The position numbers and the translations under genes are program-made. Shown piece after piece: positions 5,195 through 19,451 of a stretch of DNA of 34,538 nucleotides. The notes beneath the pieces are model-generated. The model was not told where the DNA came from. It saw nothing but the letters and a program-made list of their open reading frames with translations, and searched no databases. The stretch lies in NCBI GenBank assembly GCA_003671025.1, contig QWPW01000023.1, positions 1 to 34,538 on the forward strand, read 5' to 3'. The stretch is from Planctomycetota bacterium. GTDB taxonomy: Bacteria > Planctomycetota > Phycisphaerae > Phycisphaerales > SM1A02. How positions within the stretch are numbered: the stretch's first letter is position 1; each line of letters opens with the position of its first letter.

Positions 5195-8100
5195 ATGACG
5201 GTCAATAGTCCGCAACCTCTTGGGTCGATGAGCGAACGCGTGCAAGAGGCGTTCGCGCAGGCAGTCGAATTGGATGGACTGCCGCGCAGTGCGTTTCTCA
5301 CTCGACTGCGCGAAGAGGACGCGGCGTTGGCGAAGGAAGTCGAATCGCTTGTGCGCTTCCATGGCGCTGGCAATGGCGAGGGGCGCGACCGCGCACTCGA
5401 CCAGGTGCTCGATCAACTGCTCGACGGCGGGCACACACACCTCGGTTTGGAGCGCGATCGGCATCCCACCCTCTCACTTCCGCCCTCACTCTTGGGCGAA
5501 GTGGTCGGAGGCTGCAAGCTCGAGCGCATCATCGGCGCAGGCGGAATGAGCGCCGTGTATTCGGCGTGGCAAGGATTTCCCCCCCGACGCGTCGCGGTCA
5601 AGATTGTGCGTCGTGAACGTCTCAGCGCTGCAGCGCGACGACGGCTGCGCGTTGAAGCCGAAGCGTTGGCGCGGCTCGAGCATCCCAACATCGCGCGCGT
5701 GTACGCGGCGGGGTCGCAGCTGATCGGCTCGCGCGAATCCGATCCCGATTCGCCGTACATCGTGATGGAACTGGTTGAAGGCGCGATGACCATCACGCGC
5801 TGGGCCGACGAAAAACAACTCAACGCCAGGGCACGCATCGCGCTGATGTCCACGATTTGCGATGCCGTTGAACATGCGCATCGCGCTGGTGTCATTCATC
5901 GCGACATCAAACCGGGCAATGTGATCGTTGGAATCGACGGCACGCCCAAGGTGATCGACTTCGGTATCGCTTCGGTGGCGGACTCCACCGTCACCGCGGC
6001 CACCGAAGGACCGATGGGCACGCTCGCATATATGAGCCCTGAACAAGCGCGCGGAAGCACGATCGACACGCGCAGCGATGTGTGGGGTCTCGGCGCACTG
6101 CTCTACGACTTGCTCGCGGATCGACCTCCGTTTGACATGCGCGACCGTTCGCTCGCGCAACATCTCGATCGACTGTTGCATGATCCGCCCACGCATATCA
6201 CTCACGCAGCGAGTGAGGCTCGGGGCGCATCGTTCGTCATCACACTTCCAGCTGCCACCGATGCGGTGTTGCGCAAAGCGCTCGCGACCGATCCCGATCG
6301 ACGCTATCGCGGCGCTGGCGAACTCGGAGACGAACTGCGTCGACTCATTCGCGGCGAAACGTTGTTGGCGCGGCCCGATTCCGAGTGGGACTCATTGGCG
6401 CGTGTCACTCGTCGCCATCGCCGATCGCTGATTGCGGCGACGGGCATTGCACTGACTGTCGTGTGCGCGCTCGTGGTCTCGCTGATCTTGCTCAATAGTG
6501 AACGCACCGCGTTGGCGCACGCCAATTGGAGCGCGTATCTCGCGTCCATCAGCGCCGCCAGTGGAATGCTCGACCGCGGCGATGCCAGTGCCGCGCACAA
6601 AAATCTCTCCGCCGCGCCCGAGTTTCATCGCGATTGGGAATGGAACTTTCTCGAGCAGCGATGTGATCAAACTTCGTGGCAATTGCAATTGCCGCGCAGT
6701 CAACAGGTGTATGGATTGGACTACGCCGCGGATGGGCGCACGCTTTTCGTCGCAGCGAGCGGTCACGCGTTGGCACTCGACGCGCAAACGCATCAAGAAC
6801 GTTGGCGGGTGAAGAGCGGCTCGACCGACCCGTGGTGGCGCGTGCGCGCGGTTGCCGATCGGGGCGCGGTGTTCCTGCGACTCGTCATCGGACTTGAACG
6901 CGTCGATGGCAATGGTGCGGTGCTCGCATGGGTCGAGGACCCCAACATCAATGACATGGACGTCAACGCTGCAGGTGATCGTCTGTTCACCAACTCCCCC
7001 AGCGGCGCAGTTGAACGCGATGTGAACACACTCGCACTACTGCGAACGATCGTGGCCGTGCCTGCGCTCACTGCATTTCCGCGCGAGATGTGTGTTGCGC
7101 CTGATGGGTCACGCATCGTCACTGGCGATATGGGCGGGTCTGTCACTTTGTTTGACAGTGAGAACGGCGTGGTCGCGTGGTCATGGAAAACCCCAGGGAT
7201 TCCCGTGGAAATTCGCGGTGTTGCGTTCTCCAGTGACGGCACGCGCGTCGTCGCGTGCGGCGGACCGCATCTCGTGGTCTTCGATGCCGCAACTGGCGCG
7301 GTGCTTTGGCATCTCGCGCAGAGTGGTCACTTGTATTGCTCGCCGAGTTTCACCGTCGATGCGAATGAAGTGCTCGTTGCCACATGGAGCGAGACCGTGG
7401 AACGCTACGACGCGAGCAACGGCGCGCTTATCGCCAGCATCAGCGGAGCCCATAGTCAAGTGTGGACCGTAGTTCCTTCGCCTGACGGAACCTCGATCGC
7501 CGCGGGTTGCTTTGGTGCGCGCGTGCAAGTGTTCGCGTCGAACGCATCGACGGACATTCCTGCGCTTGTGCTCGACGGCTCTGCGATAGTCAGCGTGGCC
7601 ACGAGCGCGCAGAAATCGAGCGCATCCTTGTATGCCGCGACGGCCAACGGCGCGCTCTTCGCAATTGATCGCGCGACACTCGCGGTGCAACGCATCAGTG
7701 TTGATCTACATGTGAACGATGTCGCCGTCGCTGCAGATGACACCGTGGCAGTAGCGCACGATGGTGGCGTGGTGTGGCTCACTGGTGATGGCTCAGTCTC
7801 GCGCAGCGCCACGACGTCCGCGCGCGTGCATCGCGTTGGATTCGTCAGTCAAGACAAACTCACGGCCGCAATTTGCGCGGATGGATGCGAAGTGTTCTTC
7901 GACAGTGCCAGCACGAAGGAGAAGTGGATGGTGGGTGATCGCAAGAAAGGTTGCTCAATCGCGTGCGACACGCAGGATTCAAACGTCGTCTATATCCCTG
8001 GTGGACATGGTGGCGTGTCGGTGTTGCTCAACTCCACGAGTGGCTTGCAGGCGCATCCGAAGCACATGTCACCCGAGTTCCCCATCACCGCGGCACTCTC

Positions 8101-8422
8101 GCCTGACCGAAAAACCCTTGCAATTGGCTGCGTGATGAGCGAAGGCGAAGTGAGCCTGCTCGACGCGCGCACGTTCAAACCACGCGCGAATCTGCCCAAT
8201 CACCGAGGAAATGTGCATGCGGTGGCGTGGAGCAACGATGGCCAACGAATCGCCAGCGCTGCGGGCGACGACACGGTGCGCATTTGGCATGTCGCGCGTG
8301 AGTGCGAGATTCTCACCGCGTGGCGTGGGCCGTGTACTGATCTCGCGTTTGATGCGAACGACGCGCTGTGGCTCGCGTGTGCGGATGGTCGACTGCGCGT
8401 CTTGCGTGCCAACGATCGTTGA
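5195..8422 (+). CDS. Membrane-anchored Ser/Thr protein kinase with C-terminal WD40/PQQ-like propeller
   Basis: 1075 aa. Residues 1-100 carry the helical N-terminus usual for kinases paired with these sigma factors. The Hanks-type kinase spans ~105-395: glycine loop GAGGMSAVY (114-122), ATP lysine K136 in VAVKIV, catalytic HRDIKPGN (235-242), DFG (255-257) and a substituted APE motif, SPE (281-283). All key residues are present, so it should be active. One membrane span lies at ~411-433. The ~620 residues beyond it hold irregular WD40/quinoprotein-like blades, the last being a canonical WD40 (GNVHAVAWSNDGQRIASAAGDDTVRIWHV). This topology puts the kinase in the cytoplasm and the propeller outside, consistent with a sensor that signals to the upstream sigma factor. 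The ATG at 5195 has no clear ribosome site; ATG 5228 is an alternative. Confidence 0.92.
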   Translation: MTVNSPQPLGSMSERVQEAFAQAVELDGLPRSAFLTRLREEDAALAKEVESLVRFHGAGNGEGRDRALDQVLDQLLDGGHTHLGLERDRHPTLSLPPSLLGEVVGGCKLERIIGAGGMSAVYSAWQGFPPRRVAVKIVRRERLSAAARRRLRVEAEALARLEHPNIARVYAAGSQLIGSRESDPDSPYIVMELVEGAMTITRWADEKQLNARARIALMSTICDAVEHAHRAGVIHRDIKPGNVIVGIDGTPKVIDFGIASVADSTVTAATEGPMGTLAYMSPEQARGSTIDTRSDVWGLGALLYDLLADRPPFDMRDRSLAQHLDRLLHDPPTHITHAASEARGASFVITLPAATDAVLRKALATDPDRRYRGAGELGDELRRLIRGETLLARPDSEWDSLARVTRRHRRSLIAATGIALTVVCALVVSLILLNSERTALAHANWSAYLASISAASGMLDRGDASAAHKNLSAAPEFHRDWEWNFLEQRCDQTSWQLQLPRSQQVYGLDYAADGRTLFVAASGHALALDAQTHQERWRVKSGSTDPWWRVRAVADRGAVFLRLVIGLERVDGNGAVLAWVEDPNINDMDVNAAGDRLFTNSPSGAVERDVNTLALLRTIVAVPALTAFPREMCVAPDGSRIVTGDMGGSVTLFDSENGVVAWSWKTPGIPVEIRGVAFSSDGTRVVACGGPHLVVFDAATGAVLWHLAQSGHLYCSPSFTVDANEVLVATWSETVERYDASNGALIASISGAHSQVWTVVPSPDGTSIAAGCFGARVQVFASNASTDIPALVLDGSAIVSVATSAQKSSASLYAATANGALFAIDRATLAVQRISVDLHVNDVAVAADDTVAVAHDGGVVWLTGDGSVSRSATTSARVHRVGFVSQDKLTAAICADGCEVFFDSASTKEKWMVGDRKKGCSIACDTQDSNVVYIPGGHGGVSVLLNSTSGLQAHPKHMSPEFPITAALSPDRKTLAIGCVMSEGEVSLLDARTFKPRANLPNHRGNVHAVAWSNDGQRIASAAGDDTVRIWHVARECEILTAWRGPCTDLAFDANDALWLACADGRLRVLRANDR

Positions 8423-12813: not shown

Positions 12814-14403
12814 ATGACTACGACCGACCCCGCACCGCAAAGTGTGCGCACGCCGCGCGATCTTGTTGGACTGGCATTGCTTCATGGCGGAGTCGCCGCG
12901 TGGGTCGGCTACGGCGTGGTGGTGAAGGCCGTCGAGTTCAATCCGCAACTGCTGCCGCCGCCGATCTTGCAGAGTTTGTTGTGGTTCGCGCGATCCACCT
13001 CGGTCGACGCATCGGCGTTTATCGAATGGTCGTTTCGCGCGATTCTCGGCGTGGAAGTCTTCATCGTGCTCGCGGTGCTCTGTTCGATTCGCTACGCGCG
13101 CGTCATTGCCATCGCAACGCTCTCCTTCTTCTGTTTGGTGCTGCTCATCGCGATGAGCATGGCTGGAATGAAGGATGGCTTGAGTGCCGCGCTCACCGGG
13201 AGTTGCGGCTGCTTCGGCGAAAAAGGATTTCCCGCGAGCGTGATGTTGTTGATTGACGGCGTTCTGCTCGCCAACGCGATCTTCCTCGCGCCGCGCCCTC
13301 GTCGCGGCGGAACCACCGCGCTCTATGCGGCGATGGTCATCGGCGCGATTGCAATCTTCGCCATCCCCGAGCGCCATGTTGCGACTCCAGTGCCAGTTGA
13401 TTCCGCGGTCAGCGATCCAACCGCGACCGACGCGCAGATTCCCGCGAGCAACGCGATCACTGGCCCATGGCCCGCGGTGCCTGCAACGTGGGAGAAGAAC
13501 TATTTCCCTAAGTGGAAAGAGTGGATCGGCAAGCCATTTCGCGAGCAGAAACTTGCGTTGGCCATCGATCGACCAATGCCTGTTGATCTTGAGCAAGGCG
13601 ATTGGCTGATCACGTTTTCGCGTTGGGATTGCGATCACTGCCAAGAGATGTATCGCGCGCACTTCGCGAAACCGCGCGCAGAAAAGATCATGAAAGTCAG
13701 CATTCCTGATACGACAGGACGACCGCTGCCGATGCCGTGCGTTGGCTGCGTCGACAAATTGCTCTTCCGCGTGAAAGCCGGCGAAACTGGGCGCTCACCC
13801 AACTACCTCATTCAGACGCCGATCATTGTGCGTCTTAAAGATGGCATCGTCACTGCGGTGTGCACCGATGTCGACAACGTGCAGGAGCTCAACGCGATTC
13901 TCAACGAGACGATCGTCGAACCAGCGCCGCCCATCGCAACAAACATTCCCCCAACCAACACTGCCAAGAGTTGGCCTGGGCCTCCCGCGCAACTTGACGC
14001 GTTCTACATCGCGGAGTTTGCGGGGACCGAGGGCAAACCGTTCTCTGACAATTCGTTCGCACGCTTGATTGCAGGCACTATTCCTGCGGACTTTCTCACG
14101 GGTCGTTGGATTGTGATCTTCTTTCGCGAAGACTGTGAGCACTGCCACGAGTTGCTTTCAACCTATTTCACGGGCAAGCTCTCGGTGCGCACGATGACCA
14201 TCGCGATTCCTGATGCTGACCCCAACAACATCAATCAAAATCCCTGCGATGCCTGCGCAAAGTTGAGCATGATCAAAGGACCGAACTATGTCATCGGCAC
14301 ACCAGTGGTGCTCGCGATCAACGATGGCGTGGTCGAATGCGTCATCGAAGATGCGGAAGACATGGCGGCGCTTGAAGCATGTATGAAGCTCACCGCGCCG
14401 TGA
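12814..14403 (+). CDS. MauE/DoxX-like membrane protein with two double-CxxC thioredoxin-like domains
   Basis: 529 aa from ATG 12814 (MTTTDPAPQS). Residues ~15-190 hold four or five membrane spans with GSCGCFGE (129-136) between the third and fourth, as in MauE-type redox membrane proteins. Two homologous soluble domains follow. Domain 1: CDHC (273-276), CVGC (309-312), likely cis-Pro 336 and C350 in DGIVTAVC. Domain 2: CEHC (441-444), CDAC (478-481), Pro 497 and C509 in DGVVECV. The first CxxC sits after a strand (WLITFSRWD, WIVIFFRED) like the thioredoxin active site. The second CxxC after an IPD turn is not standard. I infer thiol-disulfide exchange outside the cytoplasmic membrane. A related gene starts 6 bp downstream, so they form an operon. 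Confidence 0.82.
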   Translation: MTTTDPAPQSVRTPRDLVGLALLHGGVAAWVGYGVVVKAVEFNPQLLPPPILQSLLWFARSTSVDASAFIEWSFRAILGVEVFIVLAVLCSIRYARVIAIATLSFFCLVLLIAMSMAGMKDGLSAALTGSCGCFGEKGFPASVMLLIDGVLLANAIFLAPRPRRGGTTALYAAMVIGAIAIFAIPERHVATPVPVDSAVSDPTATDAQIPASNAITGPWPAVPATWEKNYFPKWKEWIGKPFREQKLALAIDRPMPVDLEQGDWLITFSRWDCDHCQEMYRAHFAKPRAEKIMKVSIPDTTGRPLPMPCVGCVDKLLFRVKAGETGRSPNYLIQTPIIVRLKDGIVTAVCTDVDNVQELNAILNETIVEPAPPIATNIPPTNTAKSWPGPPAQLDAFYIAEFAGTEGKPFSDNSFARLIAGTIPADFLTGRWIVIFFREDCEHCHELLSTYFTGKLSVRTMTIAIPDADPNNINQNPCDACAKLSMIKGPNYVIGTPVVLAINDGVVECVIEDAEDMAALEACMKLTAP

Positions 14404-14409
14404 CCTGCG

Positions 14410-15372
14410 ATGGACAAACTTCTTTGCGCGATTTCTCTTGAGTCTTCACTGATGAAATTTTTTCTCCAACCTCGCGTTGCGTCCTTCATCATCGCGCTGG
14501 CATTCGCGCTGATGGCTTCGCTCCAACTCTGGCTTGGTGCCGAAAGCACGCCCGCGCCGATTCACACGGTTTTACAAGGGGTTTTTGCCATGCCCGACCT
14601 CATCGCGGCGCGACTGATCATCGCCGCCGAGTTTGGCATCGCGGCCGCCGTGTTGTGTGCCGGCGTGCGTCCGTTGAATGTCGCTGCGACAACAGTGAGT
14701 GCGTTTGTCGCACTCGCGTGCGTCTCACGCGCGTTGCGTGAGGGCGGCCTCCCGTTGAGCGCACTCGCGTTGATCAGTTCTCTCGCGCTTCTGGCACTGG
14801 CTGTGCACGCCGCGCCACGCCTACGAGCTGTGACGGCGCGCCGAGGAATGTCATCCGCGTGGACCGCACTGGGTGCGCTTGCCGCGGCGACGATTGGAAT
14901 GCGCGTGGCTGCGAGCACTTCGTTTCGCGCACCGATCACTGACGAGGCCGCGAGCAGCAAAGTCAGCGTCTCGGTGATCGATCTCGACATGAAGCCGTTC
15001 ATCGGGCGTCATTACAACGACACCAGTCTCGCGAGCTATCTCCCCGACCTCGGACCGCTCGTGAGTGAAGGAACTGCCTTCGTCGTCTTCTATCACCCGA
15101 ACTGCCAGACGTGTCACGGATTGTTTGATGACTACTTCGCGGTGCCGCGCGTAGAAACAGTCGTCGCAGTGGAGATCCCGCCCGCAACAGGATCGATCTC
15201 TGCAAGTCACGAAGAGCTCGGCGCGATCCATTGCCCACAATGCAGCATGCTCATGCTTCCGCCGGGACCTGCGTGGGGAGTTGCCTCACCCATGGTGGTG
15301 AAGTTTGAGAACGGCATCATCACTTGCTCGTCCGATCGTTACGGAGGCGATTGCCTCAACCCTGCGCAGTGA
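14410..15372 (+). CDS. Membrane protein with one double-CxxC thioredoxin-like domain (paralogue of the upstream gene)
   Basis: 320 aa. Residues ~20-165 form about four to five membrane spans resembling a MauE/DoxX core but without the CGCFG motif. The C-terminal domain repeats the upstream module: AFVVFYHP-NCQTC (C232, C235), an IPPATG turn, CPQC (275-278), Pro 294 and C306 in NGIITC. The start may be ATG 14410 (6 bp after the upstream stop) or ATG 14452 (MKFFLQPRVASF); neither has a strong ribosome site. Together the two proteins carry three copies of the module, which points to an electron-relay or scaffold role at the membrane, by inference. The last 17 bp overlap the end of tilS on the other strand. 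Confidence 0.8.
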   Translation: MDKLLCAISLESSLMKFFLQPRVASFIIALAFALMASLQLWLGAESTPAPIHTVLQGVFAMPDLIAARLIIAAEFGIAAAVLCAGVRPLNVAATTVSAFVALACVSRALREGGLPLSALALISSLALLALAVHAAPRLRAVTARRGMSSAWTALGALAAATIGMRVAASTSFRAPITDEAASSKVSVSVIDLDMKPFIGRHYNDTSLASYLPDLGPLVSEGTAFVVFYHPNCQTCHGLFDDYFAVPRVETVVAVEIPPATGSISASHEELGAIHCPQCSMLMLPPGPAWGVASPMVVKFENGIITCSSDRYGGDCLNPAQ

Positions 15373-16429
15373 TGTGATCGGCTGTGACTTCGCGCGCGTT
15401 GATGATCAAACACACGGCACCACTGCAGTCGAATGATTTCGGCGCGCGTTGAGGGTCACGCAAGACACGCAGCGCCGCAGCGAGCGTTGGTCGCGCGATA
15501 TCTCCGCCCGCCGCGTGCACCAATCGACGCAGCACCGTTGCATGCAACGCGTGAGGAGCCTCGTCCATTGTTGCTCGTGTGATGGAAGTGACGCCCACTG
15601 GTGCGATGTGCGCCGCGAGCGTGTCGCGCAACTCGAGCAGTTGCTCCGCTTCATCGGACAGGACAGCAGCACCCAACGCAATCTGCTCGACGAGACGCGC
15701 CAAGCCAGGATCGCTGCGCAACGCACCGCGTTCATGCGAGGCGTTGGAGGGATCCTCGTGCCACTCGATTTCGATGGCGCGGAGGAACGCACGCAACTCT
15801 TCGCGGCGCGTGTTCAGCATCGGTCGCGCCACTCGTAAATCATCGGCGAATTCGCGCATCGGAAGAAGAGTCGCGAATGACTCGAGTGCTTTGGCGCGCA
15901 CCAGTGCCAGCAGCACTCCTTCCGCACGATCATCCGCGTGATGTGCTTGCACGGCGATGGCGCTGCCAACGCGCGCGCAAATTCGCGCCGCAACACCCAG
16001 TCGCGCTTCACGCGCGCACTCCAACATGTTGCCCGTGCGCGGCAATACCACTGACTCGCTGTGTACATCGCGGATACCGAGATGATGGGCAAGTGCAACC
16101 ACGAACGCGCACTCCGCGACAGCTTCGCTGCGCAATCCGTGATTGATCGTGAGCACCGAAATCGACGCGAGCGTCGGATCGGTACGCTCACGCAACGCTG
16201 CGATGAGCAACATCATCGCCACCGAATCCGCACCACCACTGACCATCAACAGCAGCGCATCGCCGCTGGAAACACCCGATTGTTCGAGCCCGTGTGCGAC
16301 CAGCGGCGCGAGCGCATGACGCGAACTGCGCAACAACAATTCTTCACGCGTCAGCCAAGATGGATTCGTCGCACATGTTGTGTCTGTCGAGCAGGCAACC
16401 ATGGCTATGGGTTCGCGTACGCCACTCAT
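15356..16429 (-). CDS. tilS: tRNA(Ile)-lysidine synthase
   Basis: 357 aa. TilS converts the wobble cytidine of tRNA-Ile(CAU) to lysidine with ATP and lysine, and is normally essential. The PP-loop SGGADS (64-69) binds ATP; TINHGLRSEA and the AVQAHHADDRAEGVLLAL segment match the N-type PP-loop ATPase core. The C-terminal region (~220-350) matches the helical middle and tail domains weakly. In AHHADDRAEG the usual HHxDDQ(A/V)E glutamine is Arg. The start at 16429 overlaps the stop of the preceding gene in an ATGA (16426-16429), so tilS is probably translated by coupling in the ECF operon. Confidence 0.88.
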   Translation of the reverse strand: MSGVREPIAMVACSTDTTCATNPSWLTREELLLRSSRHALAPLVAHGLEQSGVSSGDALLLMVSGGADSVAMMLLIAALRERTDPTLASISVLTINHGLRSEAVAECAFVVALAHHLGIRDVHSESVVLPRTGNMLECAREARLGVAARICARVGSAIAVQAHHADDRAEGVLLALVRAKALESFATLLPMREFADDLRVARPMLNTRREELRAFLRAIEIEWHEDPSNASHERGALRSDPGLARLVEQIALGAAVLSDEAEQLLELRDTLAAHIAPVGVTSITRATMDEAPHALHATVLRRLVHAAGGDIARPTLAAALRVLRDPQRAPKSFDCSGAVCLIINAREVTADHITAQG

Positions 16430-18285
16430 GGGCGAGCGGCTTCCACACTTGCCGCGGGCTTGTGCGCACCTTTGACCGCGACGGATTCACTCGCGCTCCG
16501 TGTGCCGTGGGCGTGATCAGAGCCCGCGTCAATCTCAATCGTCGCACGCACCGAGTTGTCGGTGGGAAGTTCGTACATGAAGCGCACACGACCAAGTCGC
16601 TCGAACGTTGCGGCGAGCGCGTCGAGTCCGCTGCCGACGCGATCGTTCGCGGCATTGCTGGCTAACGGACGCCAACGACGCAACAACGATGCGGCGCGCG
16701 GACCGTCGCAAAACCCTAAGCCCGCGCAGGCGGAATGCGCAGGAAAACCAACGCGCGATGCGTGGCTCACGGTGACGGTCTGCGCAGCTGCGCCGTTGCT
16801 TGATCCACCACCAACGATTGCGTGGGTCTGCGCGTTTGCTTCTGTAGCACACGACGATTGCGTCAAGCAGTGCATCACTTGCGCGAGCCACTGTGGGTCA
16901 CTCGCGTACACCTGCCAACCGCCGCACTCGGTGGCGACGGTGTTCCAACAGAGCACGCTTTTGCCTAAACGAAAGGGCTTTCCGAGATACCGGTCGAGCA
17001 TCGGACCAAGTGCCGCACACTCGCGTCGTTGCGTTGCGTGGTCGGCTTCATCGCCGATGGCAAGCGTCTCGCGTCGCCGCTTCGATTGCATTTCAGCGGA
17101 CTCGTCGGCGTGGAGATGATTCGCGGGCTCGATGCTGCGCGCGATTCCGCAACACACTCCACGCATGTATCCATCTTGATCGAGCAAGCCTTGCTCGGCA
17201 TCATCAACGCGCCATGCAAACGCGATCGAAGGTGCTGCATGCATTTCGCGCGCGCCGATGGCGAGCAGTCGATCGCCGGAAAGATTGGCGCGCATTGCGG
17301 GTGATGCGGTGAGTTCAGGAACAACCGCAGTCCAAAACGAATCCGCAGAATTCGGTTTGCCGTCCGCTGGATTCATCACCACGAAGAGCGCGCTGTCCTC
17401 GAACGCGCGCAGCAACTTGCTGTCCATGCTGATCGCAGGAGTTGCGGCCCCTAACGGCGAAGACTCGTACTCGCCGTGTACTTGCGCCAGAATCTTTCCT
17501 GAGCCGAGATCGAGCTTTGGTGCGTTGGCGGCTCTCGAACTGTTTTCCGCTACCGCCTCGATGCTGAGCGCCACCGTGGTTGCGCCACCAATAGGCGCGG
17601 AGTGACGCATGAAGATGCGCATCGGCGCATCGGAACCCAACAACTCTTGCAACAGTGGTTCGCCCAAGAGCGAGTTCGCTGGTTCTTCACGCATCGCGCG
17701 CGTCGACGCGAGGTCGAGTGCGTTGTCGCCGGCAATTCCCAGCGGCGCCATCAACAGCCAGCCACCGACACGACGCAATGAAAGTTTCTCCGTGGGCGCG
17801 ACGAAGCATCCCGGCGAAACCAAGCGCGCGTTGAACATCCGCAACACGCGCTCGCAGCGATCATCGTTCGATTGAAACGCCAGCACCCAAACGCTTGCAT
17901 CGGTGATGCGCGCGGGTGCGGATGGGTTCAACAATGGCTCCGCGGAAACGTCTTCCAAGAAGAAGGCGATGCGGCCAGTGAAGAGTTCATGCGCCACTGC
18001 ATCGGCGGCGGTTCCCGCACGTCGCGCGAGGAGATCGAATGTCGCAAGCGCTTTCGAACCGGCAAGCACTTCGAGCACGGGACGCATGGCCGCGCCTTGT
18101 TCGCCGCGCAAAAAGTGTGCGGGCGCGCGCGCGTCGATCGCGAAAGTCGCGCCGCGCGGAGCCAATGCAAACGCCGCGTTGTCCGCGTAAGCAGACTGCG
18201 TCCTAGCGGTGGTGACGAGTACGAATCCAAGCGCAAGCGCGAGTGCGCGCGAACATGAATGAATGAGCGCGGCGCGACAGTGCAT
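16426..18285 (-). CDS. Large secreted protein of unknown function
   Basis: About 619 aa from ATG 18285, or 622 from a GTG at 18294 that directly abuts the preceding stop. I do not recognise the family. It has a signal peptide (RALALALGFVLVTTARTQSAYA), then a mixed alpha/beta sequence rich in Ala, Leu and Arg with no catalytic motif I can name. It is Cys-containing in its second half (CCG, ECAA, ECGG, CLTQSSC, CAGLGFCDG), which could mean disulfides outside the cytoplasm. The arrangement of repeated Gly/Ala strands resembles planctomycete 'DUF3352-like' extracellular proteins, but this is only an impression. It lies between a one-span membrane protein and tilS in a tight operon headed by an ECF sigma factor. 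Confidence 0.72.
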   Translation of the reverse strand: MHCRAALIHSCSRALALALGFVLVTTARTQSAYADNAAFALAPRGATFAIDARAPAHFLRGEQGAAMRPVLEVLAGSKALATFDLLARRAGTAADAVAHELFTGRIAFFLEDVSAEPLLNPSAPARITDASVWVLAFQSNDDRCERVLRMFNARLVSPGCFVAPTEKLSLRRVGGWLLMAPLGIAGDNALDLASTRAMREEPANSLLGEPLLQELLGSDAPMRIFMRHSAPIGGATTVALSIEAVAENSSRAANAPKLDLGSGKILAQVHGEYESSPLGAATPAISMDSKLLRAFEDSALFVVMNPADGKPNSADSFWTAVVPELTASPAMRANLSGDRLLAIGAREMHAAPSIAFAWRVDDAEQGLLDQDGYMRGVCCGIARSIEPANHLHADESAEMQSKRRRETLAIGDEADHATQRRECAALGPMLDRYLGKPFRLGKSVLCWNTVATECGGWQVYASDPQWLAQVMHCLTQSSCATEANAQTHAIVGGGSSNGAAAQTVTVSHASRVGFPAHSACAGLGFCDGPRAASLLRRWRPLASNAANDRVGSGLDALAATFERLGRVRFMYELPTDNSVRATIEIDAGSDHAHGTRSASESVAVKGAHKPAASVEAARP

Positions 18286-18294
18286 GATGAGCAC

Positions 18295-18828
18295 TCAGGA
18301 TTTCTTGAAGGGCGCATTGGCGCTGGCGTCGGCGGGAAGCTCACCCATCGGCTTCGCTTGGGGCGCCTCTGCCGCGAAGGGAACCGCTGAGAACGGAACC
18401 GCGATGGAACGAATCGCTTCGAACCCATCGTTCATCGCTGCGGTGCGCTCACGCAAACCACTCTCCACGATGGTCACTGCGGCGTCGTCGGCGGCGATGA
18501 TTCCCGTCTGCGGAAGCGCGTCGCGCAAGAGCGGCATCGCGCCGATCACGACGACGGCAATCAAGGCAGCAATGCCGATGGGCAGCACGCGCCGAGGGAA
18601 CTCAAGCAGAATGCGATCCGCAAGTCGCTGCGCCCGCTCATGCTCGAGCGGAGAATCATGTGCCACACGCGCCTCGCCACGCAGCGCGAGCAATGCACGC
18701 ACGAGCAATCGCTGCGCCCTGTCTGAGAAAGCACTGTTTGAAAAAGCACTGTTTGAAAAAGCGCGACGGGTGTCATCGCGCGAATCATCGCGAAACGGAT
18801 CTTCCGAACCCGAGCCGAAGCCGTTCAT
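18295..18828 (-). CDS. Single-span membrane protein, candidate anti-sigma or regulatory partner
   Basis: 177 aa. A Ser/Asp/Arg-rich N-terminus includes the repeat AFSNSAFSNSAFSD from a 15-bp DNA repeat. A helical stretch (~35-75, RAQRLLVRALLALRG...) precedes one membrane span (VLPIGIAALIAVVVIGAMPLL), and a ~75-residue Ala-rich tail follows. The gene overlaps the sigma factor stop by ATGA (18825-18828), the usual place for an anti-sigma factor, and the topology fits. There is no zinc-binding HxxxCxxC motif, so it is not a classical ZAS anti-sigma. Role inferred from context only. Confidence 0.7.
   Translation of the reverse strand: MNGFGSGSEDPFRDDSRDDTRRAFSNSAFSNSAFSDRAQRLLVRALLALRGEARVAHDSPLEHERAQRLADRILLEFPRRVLPIGIAALIAVVVIGAMPLLRDALPQTGIIAADDAAVTIVESGLRERTAAMNDGFEAIRSIAVPFSAVPFAAEAPQAKPMGELPADASANAPFKKS
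18722..18762. repeat. 15-bp in-frame tandem repeat
   Basis: GCACTGTTTGAAAAA occurs twice exactly (18731-18745 and 18746-18760), with a partial diverged copy on the left and the first bases of another on the right. On the minus strand it encodes the AFSNS units of the membrane protein N-terminus. The length is a multiple of three, so copy-number changes keep the frame. Confidence 0.9.
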
Positions 18829-19406
18829 CGAAAGACCTCAAGCGGACACGCGAAGCCGCTCATCTCAATCGCCTCAAGCATGCGCCGACGCGCGCGGAAG
18901 AGATGACTCTTGACCGTGCCCTCAGGCATGCGCAGTTCTTCAGAGATGCGCTGCACCGGCCAACCTTGCTGATGGAAGAGCAGCACGATTTCTCGTTGCG
19001 GCGAAACCAACGCATCAAGTGCGATGGTGAGCATCGCTTGCACGCGTTGTCCGCGTTCGATTTCGACGGTCTCCGTGAACGGCGTCGCAGAAGTTCCCGC
19101 GCGCCACTGCACCAGTTCGCTGTCGGCAGTGGGCCGCATCTTCTGCTGATGATTGACCAACAAGCGCTTGCCGATAGTGAAGAGCCACGTGGAAAAACGA
19201 AACCGCTCGTCGAAACGGTCCAACGAGCGGATCACGCGCACAAAGGCTTCTTGACTGAGGTCTTCGGCGAGGTCGGACTTTCCGCACAGCCGAAACAAAA
19301 AAGCCTCCAACGGACGCTGGTAGGCTTTGATCAACTCTGAAATCGCGTCACGATCGCCGCGTTGTGCGCGTTTGATGGTGAGGCGTTCGGTCTTGACATC
19401 AAGCAT
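18825..19406 (-). CDS. ECF-type RNA polymerase sigma factor
   Basis: About 193 aa from ATG 19406 (MLDVKTERL); an in-frame GTG at 19451 would add 15 residues. Region 2 contains AYQRPLEAFLFRLCGKSDLAEDLSQEAFVRVIRSL and FRFSTWLFTIGKRLLVNHQQ, the canonical ECF core-binding and -10-recognition helices. Region 4 has LDALVSPQREIVLLFHQQGWPVQRISEELRMPEGTVKSHLFRARRRM. It heads an operon with a one-span membrane protein (ATGA overlap), a large secreted protein and tilS. By analogy it responds to an envelope signal relayed by the membrane protein. Confidence 0.93.
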   Translation of the reverse strand: MLDVKTERLTIKRAQRGDRDAISELIKAYQRPLEAFLFRLCGKSDLAEDLSQEAFVRVIRSLDRFDERFRFSTWLFTIGKRLLVNHQQKMRPTADSELVQWRAGTSATPFTETVEIERGQRVQAMLTIALDALVSPQREIVLLFHQQGWPVQRISEELRMPEGTVKSHLFRARRRMLEAIEMSGFACPLEVFR

Positions 19407-19451
19407 GGGAGACTCGGTCAGTTCTTGCTGATGGATCTCGCAGGTCGTCAC

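Follow-up and report, generated by a model that had tools for sequence, protein, structure and literature searches.

What could be the function of two adjacent genes that encode membrane proteins and carry between them three copies of a thioredoxin-like module, in which a first CxxC pair is followed by a second one? The question is raised by contig QWPW01000023.1 of a Planctomycetota bacterium (assembly GCA_003671025.1; family SM1A02 of the order Phycisphaerales), of which we analysed positions 1 to 34,538, hereafter called the window. A first-pass annotation, made from these letters alone, had described the two genes, here named A and B, as thiol-disulfide machinery with a MauE-like membrane domain, and the analysis presented below supports this description. 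In our opinion, the two genes make up an operon whose products, anchored in the cytoplasmic membrane, carry out thiol-disulfide exchange on its outer side; the second CxxC and a C-terminal cysteine pair would be added pairs. We would give this reading a probability of about 0.6. The evidence for it consists of the fold matches of the module, the invariance of a CGC motif in the membrane domain of A, the pairing of the genes on the same strand, the joint presence or absence of cysteines, and the charges that point to an outward orientation.

Both open reading frames exist where the annotation had placed them (Table 1), on the same strand and with a gap of 6 bases from A to B. Judging from the family alignment, 14452 (MKFFLQ...) is a more likely start of B than 14410. 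According to hydropathy, A and B alike have hydrophobic N-terminal segments. A search of the own genome with A matched the module of B at E = 1.2e-6, and a module profile, built with the window's own rows included, returned exactly three matches in this genome at E up to 1, namely the three modules of the window, each at 3.6e-41 or better. Because A finds the module of B and the profile finds exactly these three, the three-module repeat is real.

Table 1. Positions in the window of genes A and B, their domains and their cysteine motifs
Feature	Position	Strand	Remarks
Gene A	12814..14403	+	529 aa: MauE-like membrane domain, then two thioredoxin-like modules
MauE-like membrane domain of A	12814..13383	+	Pfam MauE E=0.0087, 16.8 bits vs cut-off 27; hydropathy
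CGCFG motif of A, residues 131-135	13204..13218	+	between membrane segments 3 and 4
Thioredoxin-like module 1 (A)	13492..13884	+	profile match 1.6e-42
CDHC, module 1 first CxxC (C273, C276)	13630..13641	+	
CVGC, module 1 second CxxC (C309, C312)	13738..13749	+	
C350, module 1	13861..13863	+	two residues later than fifth Cys of modules 2 and 3
Thioredoxin-like module 2 (A)	13996..14385	+	profile match 9.9e-44; AlphaFold2 model; VIA Z up to 10.4
CEHC, module 2 first CxxC (C441, C444)	14134..14145	+	at helix start after strand (model)
CDAC, module 2 second CxxC (C478, C481)	14245..14256	+	
C509, module 2 fifth Cys	14338..14340	+	
C523, module 2 sixth Cys	14380..14382	+	
Gene B	14410..15372	+	320 aa: membrane domain without CGC hairpin, then one module
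Thioredoxin-like module 3 (B)	14968..15360	+	profile match 3.6e-41
CQTC, module 3 first CxxC (C232, C235)	15103..15114	+	invariant, 21 aligned B proteins
CPQC, module 3 second CxxC (C275, C278)	15232..15243	+	invariant, 21 aligned B proteins
C306, module 3 fifth Cys	15325..15327	+	invariant, 21 aligned B proteins
C315, module 3 sixth Cys	15352..15354	+	invariant, 21 aligned B proteins

The three modules follow the same order: CDHC 273-276, IP, CVGC 309-312 and TP 336 in module 1; CEHC 441-444, IP, CDAC 478-481 and TP 497 in module 2; CQTC 232-235, IP, CPQC 275-278 and SP 294 in module 3. In a six-row alignment of these modules with those of locus L003 (described further below), G25, C59, C62, F70, P84, C96, C99, P108, P115 and G123 are invariant. 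The shared pattern that the annotation had seen by inspection is therefore borne out, since both CxxC pairs, the IP, the proline before a strand and the glycine align in all three modules. Its claim of five cysteines common to all three has to be reduced to four: the fifth cysteine of module 1 lies in DGIVTAVC, offset by two residues from its earlier place in DGVVEC (module 2) and NGIITC (module 3). Modules 2 and 3 also have a sixth cysteine (C523 and C315), which was absent from the annotated pattern, and all six cysteines of module 3 are invariant among the aligned B proteins, which come from across the family.

What kind of fold carries these cysteines? An AlphaFold2 model of module 2, made from the six-row alignment, reached a pLDDT of 72.9 and a pTM of 0.73. 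The best solved structures found for it by Foldseek were FetE, DsbE and ResA, with TM-scores near 0.4; by query length the scores were only 0.33 to 0.49 among the 50 matches listed. VIA-align 2 gave a Z of 10.4 for 3lor_C (rmsd 2.8 over 119 residues), 10.2 for 3gl3_B (rmsd 3.1 over 118 residues) and 9.9 for CcmG 3kh9 (rmsd 3.1 over 122 residues); its top rows (Z 9.6 to 10.4) are DsbE/CcmG-type or other thiol-disulfide proteins. At the level of sequence, a search of the PDB returned mostly short matches at the CxxC of protein disulfide isomerases, the widest one noted being FetE 8t4c (profile positions 20-120, E=0.0048). A thioredoxin-like fold is thus supported by the model, and membership in the CcmG/DsbE/TlpA/ResA subtype appears likely, with ResA itself tied with other thioredoxin-fold families (see below). 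In the model, the first CxxC (59-62) begins a helix after strand 49-56, and the second CxxC (96-99) comes after strand 77-83 and ahead of the strand that Pro115 precedes. The corresponding part of thioredoxin folds runs towards the cis-Pro loop, which adjoins the active site; hence it is plausible, as far as the model goes, that the second CxxC lies close to the active site, and the conserved proline would presumably be the cis-proline.

The membrane half of A resembles MauE. The Pfam MauE family (PF07291; curated cut-off 27 bits) scores 15.7 bits on the whole protein and slightly more on the domain alone (Table 1), and it is matched at E<=0.1 in 19 of 23 A proteins of the family, the best at 7.8e-10. 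C131, G132 and C133 are invariant in all 23 aligned A proteins, and the CGC is likewise present, by pattern or by eye, in 26 of the 28 matching genomes outside the family, so that MauE-thioredoxin fusions are also to be found elsewhere in the phylum. As for the two other outside matches, L104 is only a fragment, located where its contig ends, and L166 (E=4e-4) is a different thioredoxin-like protein. B has no CGC motif, and an alignment gap falls where A has the CGC hairpin. Charges serve as a guide to membrane topology, and those of A suggest that the CGC loop and the modules are outside, on the same membrane face, while residues around 93-96 and 161-164 would be inside.

These observations can be combined into a mechanism. 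A would act like a fused MauE plus MauD, in which the outward CGC of the membrane bundle exchanges electrons with the active-site CxxC of the modules. B is a paralogue, and since it is without the CGC hairpin, it would need A or some other partner for electron exchange. How the additional cysteines fit in is a separate question; cysteines 3 and 4 and cysteines 5 and 6 would presumably pair with each other.

Could a known family already explain the second CxxC? The annotation had named this as an outcome that would refute its proposal, and we found no such assignment in Pfam, NCBIfam or PHROGs: no model of these three libraries passes its cut-off on A or B of the window, where only sub-cut-off or weak matches occur. 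The best Pfam thioredoxin match is Thioredoxin_2 on module 3, with 12.8 bits against a cut-off of 27. NF045576, the model of the BT_3928 family, scores up to 25.2 bits in some A proteins, but only in the membrane half and with a cut-off of 250. VKOR (PF07884), DsbB (PF02600) and DsbD (PF02683) gave no match on A or B at E<=1, in a search whose HMMER filters drop many weak matches. We attribute to chance the short or weak matches to Eclosion hormone, thiovarsolin, TrbB, adenylate kinase and NSF. Plasmid records gave no match.

To judge the additional cysteines, we counted them in 136 modules from the first loci, from which L001 and L002, the window copies, had been removed beforehand. The modules were gathered mostly from the best matches to the window's proteins, and hence the counts favour close relatives. 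Their labels (A1, A2, A, B and S) were assigned automatically and contain errors: the label B was given to one module that is S-like (L038), to one that is A-like (L040) and to the A modules of L032 and L039, and the label A to the B of L005. The first CxxC is found in all 136 modules, including 14 without an intact second pair, and so is the conserved proline ahead of the later strand. The annotation had made its proposal depend on the conservation of the second CxxC in relatives, and indeed both of its cysteines are kept in 122 modules, with neither in 12 and one in 2. The offset of the fifth cysteine in module 1 is also a regular feature, for first modules of two-module proteins have it at the later place in 20 of 23 cases and at the earlier place in 0 of 23; the earlier place is occupied in 20 of 23 second modules and in 51 of 52 modules labelled B. 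A fifth and a sixth cysteine are jointly present in 50 of the 52 modules labelled B and in 20 of the 23 with the label A2.

Outside the family the picture is different. Of the 28 matching genomes, inspected by eye, 23 are without both added pairs, 3 have the second CxxC only and 2 the C-terminal pair only; the three with the second CxxC (L156, L157 and L160) all belong to family f2 of the same order. It could be argued from this that both added pairs, the second CxxC as well as C5-C6, are structural disulfides by which an extracytoplasmic domain is braced, so that only the first CxxC and the CGC are redox active. The first CxxC is present in every one of the 136 modules, and the second is dispensable and mostly absent as a pair, which speaks for a brace; we also count in favour of this explanation that module 1 has five cysteines, not all of which can pair inside the domain. 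On the other hand, the spacing of the second CxxC stays constant despite very varied middle residues, and a kept CxxC spacing is more usual in redox or metal pairs than in structural disulfides. We regard the brace as possible, but would not expect it to be the answer. Regarding the second CxxC in particular, we lean slightly towards an accessory pair that is redox-active and lies near the cis-Pro side of the active site, rather than towards a disulfide of purely structural use.

The two added pairs can also be found without each other. The second CxxC is present and the C-terminal pair absent in L156, L157 and L160 (f2) and in L158 (genome G001). The reverse, a C-terminal pair with no complete second CxxC, is seen in the A proteins of genera g12, g13, g17, g22, g29 and g41 and of family f65 from outside the class, which together make up fork 93 (not starred) of the module tree. 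Each added pair can thus occur independently of the other and of the active site, which speaks for separate pairs and against a single obligatory metal site to which both CxxC contribute. There are also points in favour of a metal site: four cysteines are conserved in two CxxC pairs, whose distance is 32 to 42 residues in 121 of the 122 modules, and this would suit the binding of zinc, copper or an iron-sulfur cluster by a metal chaperone or sensor, and a passage of PMC8615215 describes zinc binding by Trx2 through two extra CxxC that form an N-terminal zinc finger. However, the 14 modules without an intact second pair retain the first CxxC, the second CxxC is missing in 25 of the 28 outside-family genomes, the first CxxC occupies the thioredoxin active-site position in the model, and no metal genes are among the identified neighbours (11 of the 26 neighbour clusters lie outside that set). 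Hence metal binding by both pairs seems to us improbable.

How often did the cysteines change? The module tree has 110 rows, thinned from 188 at >=65% identity, and 123 columns, with a midpoint root; L125, L148, L149, L150, L165 and L166 were left out before it was made, seven rows are long and 50 of its 107 branches are open. On it, the second CxxC needs a minimum of 5 changes, C5 7 and C6 9. As regards a coupling of the cysteine pairs, two to three independent pairs lie on starred branches, too few to test it. Within the family, genome G001 (genus g2) has two unlike copies, L158 with the second CxxC and L168 without it; the closest group to L168 on the tree consists of proteins from f38 and f64 of the phylum (98*).

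If the thiol-disulfide reading is accepted, the most ambitious form of it would be a relay inside the single thioredoxin fold of each six-cysteine module, where electrons would move among three pairs: that of the active site, the second CxxC and the one at the C-terminus. B would pass them to A, and A to the membrane CGC. We consider this unlikely as a whole. If true, the membrane would house a thiol redox system distinct from DsbB, VKOR and DsbD, the A part of which is present in most sampled genomes of the family.

Most sampled genomes of the family have a relative of one or both proteins. A match to A exists in 165 of its 181 sampled genomes, and in 101 of 104 of good quality. B, which was called from a gap in E-values (3.7e-60 vs 1.7e-40), is present in 86; a further 80 genomes have a module but no B, and 15 have no module. 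In the order, the module profile found 101 of 251 genomes at E<=0.001, 91 inside the family and 10 outside, and in a draw from the phylum 20 of 294 at E<=1e-6, 18 of them outside the family. Single-module A proteins occur in many genera, two-module ones in g1, g3, g4, g19 and g20 among the loci read, and g8 and g36 have a separate one-module gene between A and B. The recurrent unit is A-(extra module)-B. All 66 listed pairs of adjacent module genes lie on one strand with short gaps or overlaps, with the proviso that several loci appear twice in this listing and that starts are those of the longest frame; the adjacent genes overlap by 4 bases in five distinct loci. On a tree of 76 A proteins B needs 2 changes, which can be read as a single gain, on a starred branch (97*), followed by a single loss, in genus g33.

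Three observations on individual loci may be added here. L112, L117 and L119 (family f38) have tandem MauE-thioredoxin genes without the second CxxC, and hence the pairing of such genes extends beyond the window's family. L104 and L105 (f65, outside the class) have modules close to those of the window's family (E 9.8e-36 and 4.4e-31), and on the tree they fall among members of that family (forks 92 and 93, not starred), which may reflect lateral transfer. Finally, record JASGCF010000297.1 (L003; 4060 bases), titled Limnohabitans sp. MAG13, contains A and B of the window's genus type, and a genome of the same genus, G081 (L015, G081:C54), has an equal-sized contig with proteins of lengths equal to those of L003; the organism name on the record is probably wrong.

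Does A/B replace VKOR-DsbA fusions as a disulfide-generating oxidase? The question is raised by the counts: VKOR is over its cut-off in 7 of the 86 genomes with B vs 42 of the 80 that lack B but have a module (Fisher p 2e-10; the 15 module-less genomes were left out, G159 was added from a separate search, and the sub-cut-off G071 and G084 were uncounted). By genus the figures are 4 of 18 with B vs 16 of 25 without (p 0.012), and the one VKOR gene scanned is a VKOR-DSBA fusion. This contrast rests on about one event, however: B needs only the two changes mentioned above, VKOR needs 12 on the same tree, and there is one independent pair on starred branches, so the contrast can be explained by ancestry alone. 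Moreover, VKOR is kept in seven genomes with B, genus g33 (16 genomes) is without B and without a listed VKOR match, DsbB is matched in the own genome and in 8 others of 41, and the VKOR search misses genes, as illustrated by G159, found by one search and missed by the other. The own genome gave no match when searched for VKOR and has a DsbD (733-codon frame) and a DsbB-like protein. Taken together, a replacement of VKOR strikes us as a rather remote prospect.

The surroundings of the genes were compared in 59 sequences (the window and 58 loci), with crude gene calling by longest frames, which lost module genes in 10 of the 59. Three genes recur, namely a TilS-like (PP-loop) one in 29 of the sequences, one for a short-chain dehydrogenase/reductase (SDR) epimerase in 25, and one for a GmhA-like isomerase in 20; the first two were identified by Pfam in the window and the isomerase by eye. 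At a distance of 2 to 3.5 kb from A, and on the opposite strand, there is a gene that on inspection by eye looks thioredoxin-reductase-like in 9 of the 59 (L132, L133, L135 and L140-L145), all with a single-module A and in genera where B was not found. A class V aminotransferase or cysteine-desulfurase-like gene, also recognised by eye, is nearby in another count of 9 of 59. These two are the only possible redox or sulfur neighbours that we recognised, and neither is among the ten window proteins scanned. The annotation had also suggested cytochrome or copper maturation, for which the identified neighbours give no sign: there are no cytochrome, copper or methylamine genes among the ten neighbour clusters read by eye and the ten window proteins (clusters 4, 8, 14, 17-23 and 25 are outside the identified set). 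Elsewhere in the window, positions 5195-8422 encode a 1075-aa protein kinase with WD40 repeats, and 16426-18294 a 622-aa protein with no Pfam match at E<=0.001, which recurs in 20 of the 59 sequences; a gene for a sigma-70-type factor (18825-19451) is near the latter.

Several results weigh against membrane-anchored thiol-disulfide exchange as we propose it. The MauE score of the window's A is under the Pfam cut-off, and the structure model of the membrane domain is poor (pLDDT 46.6, pTM 0.31). In the fold comparison the ResA chains, with Z from 8.5 to 8.9, are level with peroxiredoxins, thiol peroxidases and deiodinases, with Z from 8.4 to 8.9. The paired conservation of the added cysteines suits structural disulfides equally well, and the second CxxC needs as few as five changes on the tree, with few independent pairs. 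In addition, given the DsbD and the DsbB-like protein of the own genome, A/B need not supply general oxidation or reduction.

A match to A is present in most sampled genomes of its family, yet the window's proteins pass no cut-off in Pfam or NCBIfam. A literature search, in which few subscription journals are covered, showed no MauE-thioredoxin fusion and no comparable second CxxC among the papers listed. MauE/DoxX-type proteins are tied to redox work. A passage of PMC10501769 places DoxX of mycobacteria in a membrane oxidoreductase complex tied to thiol recycling, and a passage of PMC7794033 still calls a role of MauE in the formation of disulfides speculation and describes the exact function of MauD as unclear. 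The system offers a natural comparison, between A with the CGC and B without it, and, among related genomes, between modules that have the second CxxC and modules that lack it. This makes it possible to test two things: does the CGC supply the thioredoxin fold to which it is joined, and does the second CxxC inside the fold act as a relay or as a brace?

Among known systems the closest is MauE/MauD. MauD is thioredoxin-like, and A, like that pair, combines a MauE-type membrane protein with a thioredoxin-like protein. Unlike it, A is fused in one chain, has extra cysteine pairs and is accompanied by a paralogue B without CGC, and no mau gene is among the identified neighbours (ten window proteins and ten clusters, with 11 of 26 clusters outside). 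The likeness of some A proteins to the BT_3928 family (NF045576) is weak and confined to the membrane half. With CcmG, DsbE and ResA the modules share the thioredoxin-like fold, the CxxC at a helix start, the proline before a strand and the membrane tether; they differ in the second CxxC between the central and the proline strand, in the C-terminal cysteine pair, and in that the window proteins reach no Pfam thioredoxin cut-off. In VKOR-DsbA fusions, DsbB and DsbD, too, a membrane bundle is either fused with a thioredoxin fold outside the cytoplasm or works together with one, but A and B gave no match to them at E<=1, and the family has separate genes for them. Thioredoxin-2 is also a thioredoxin with extra CxxC; those of Thioredoxin-2, two in number, form an N-terminal zinc finger in the description excerpted from PMC8615215, whereas the extra CxxC of A and B lies inside the fold, after the active site. 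The A/B pair is a conserved one, unnamed in Pfam, NCBIfam and PHROGs, and its extra cysteine pairs are a feature added to a kind of system that is already known.

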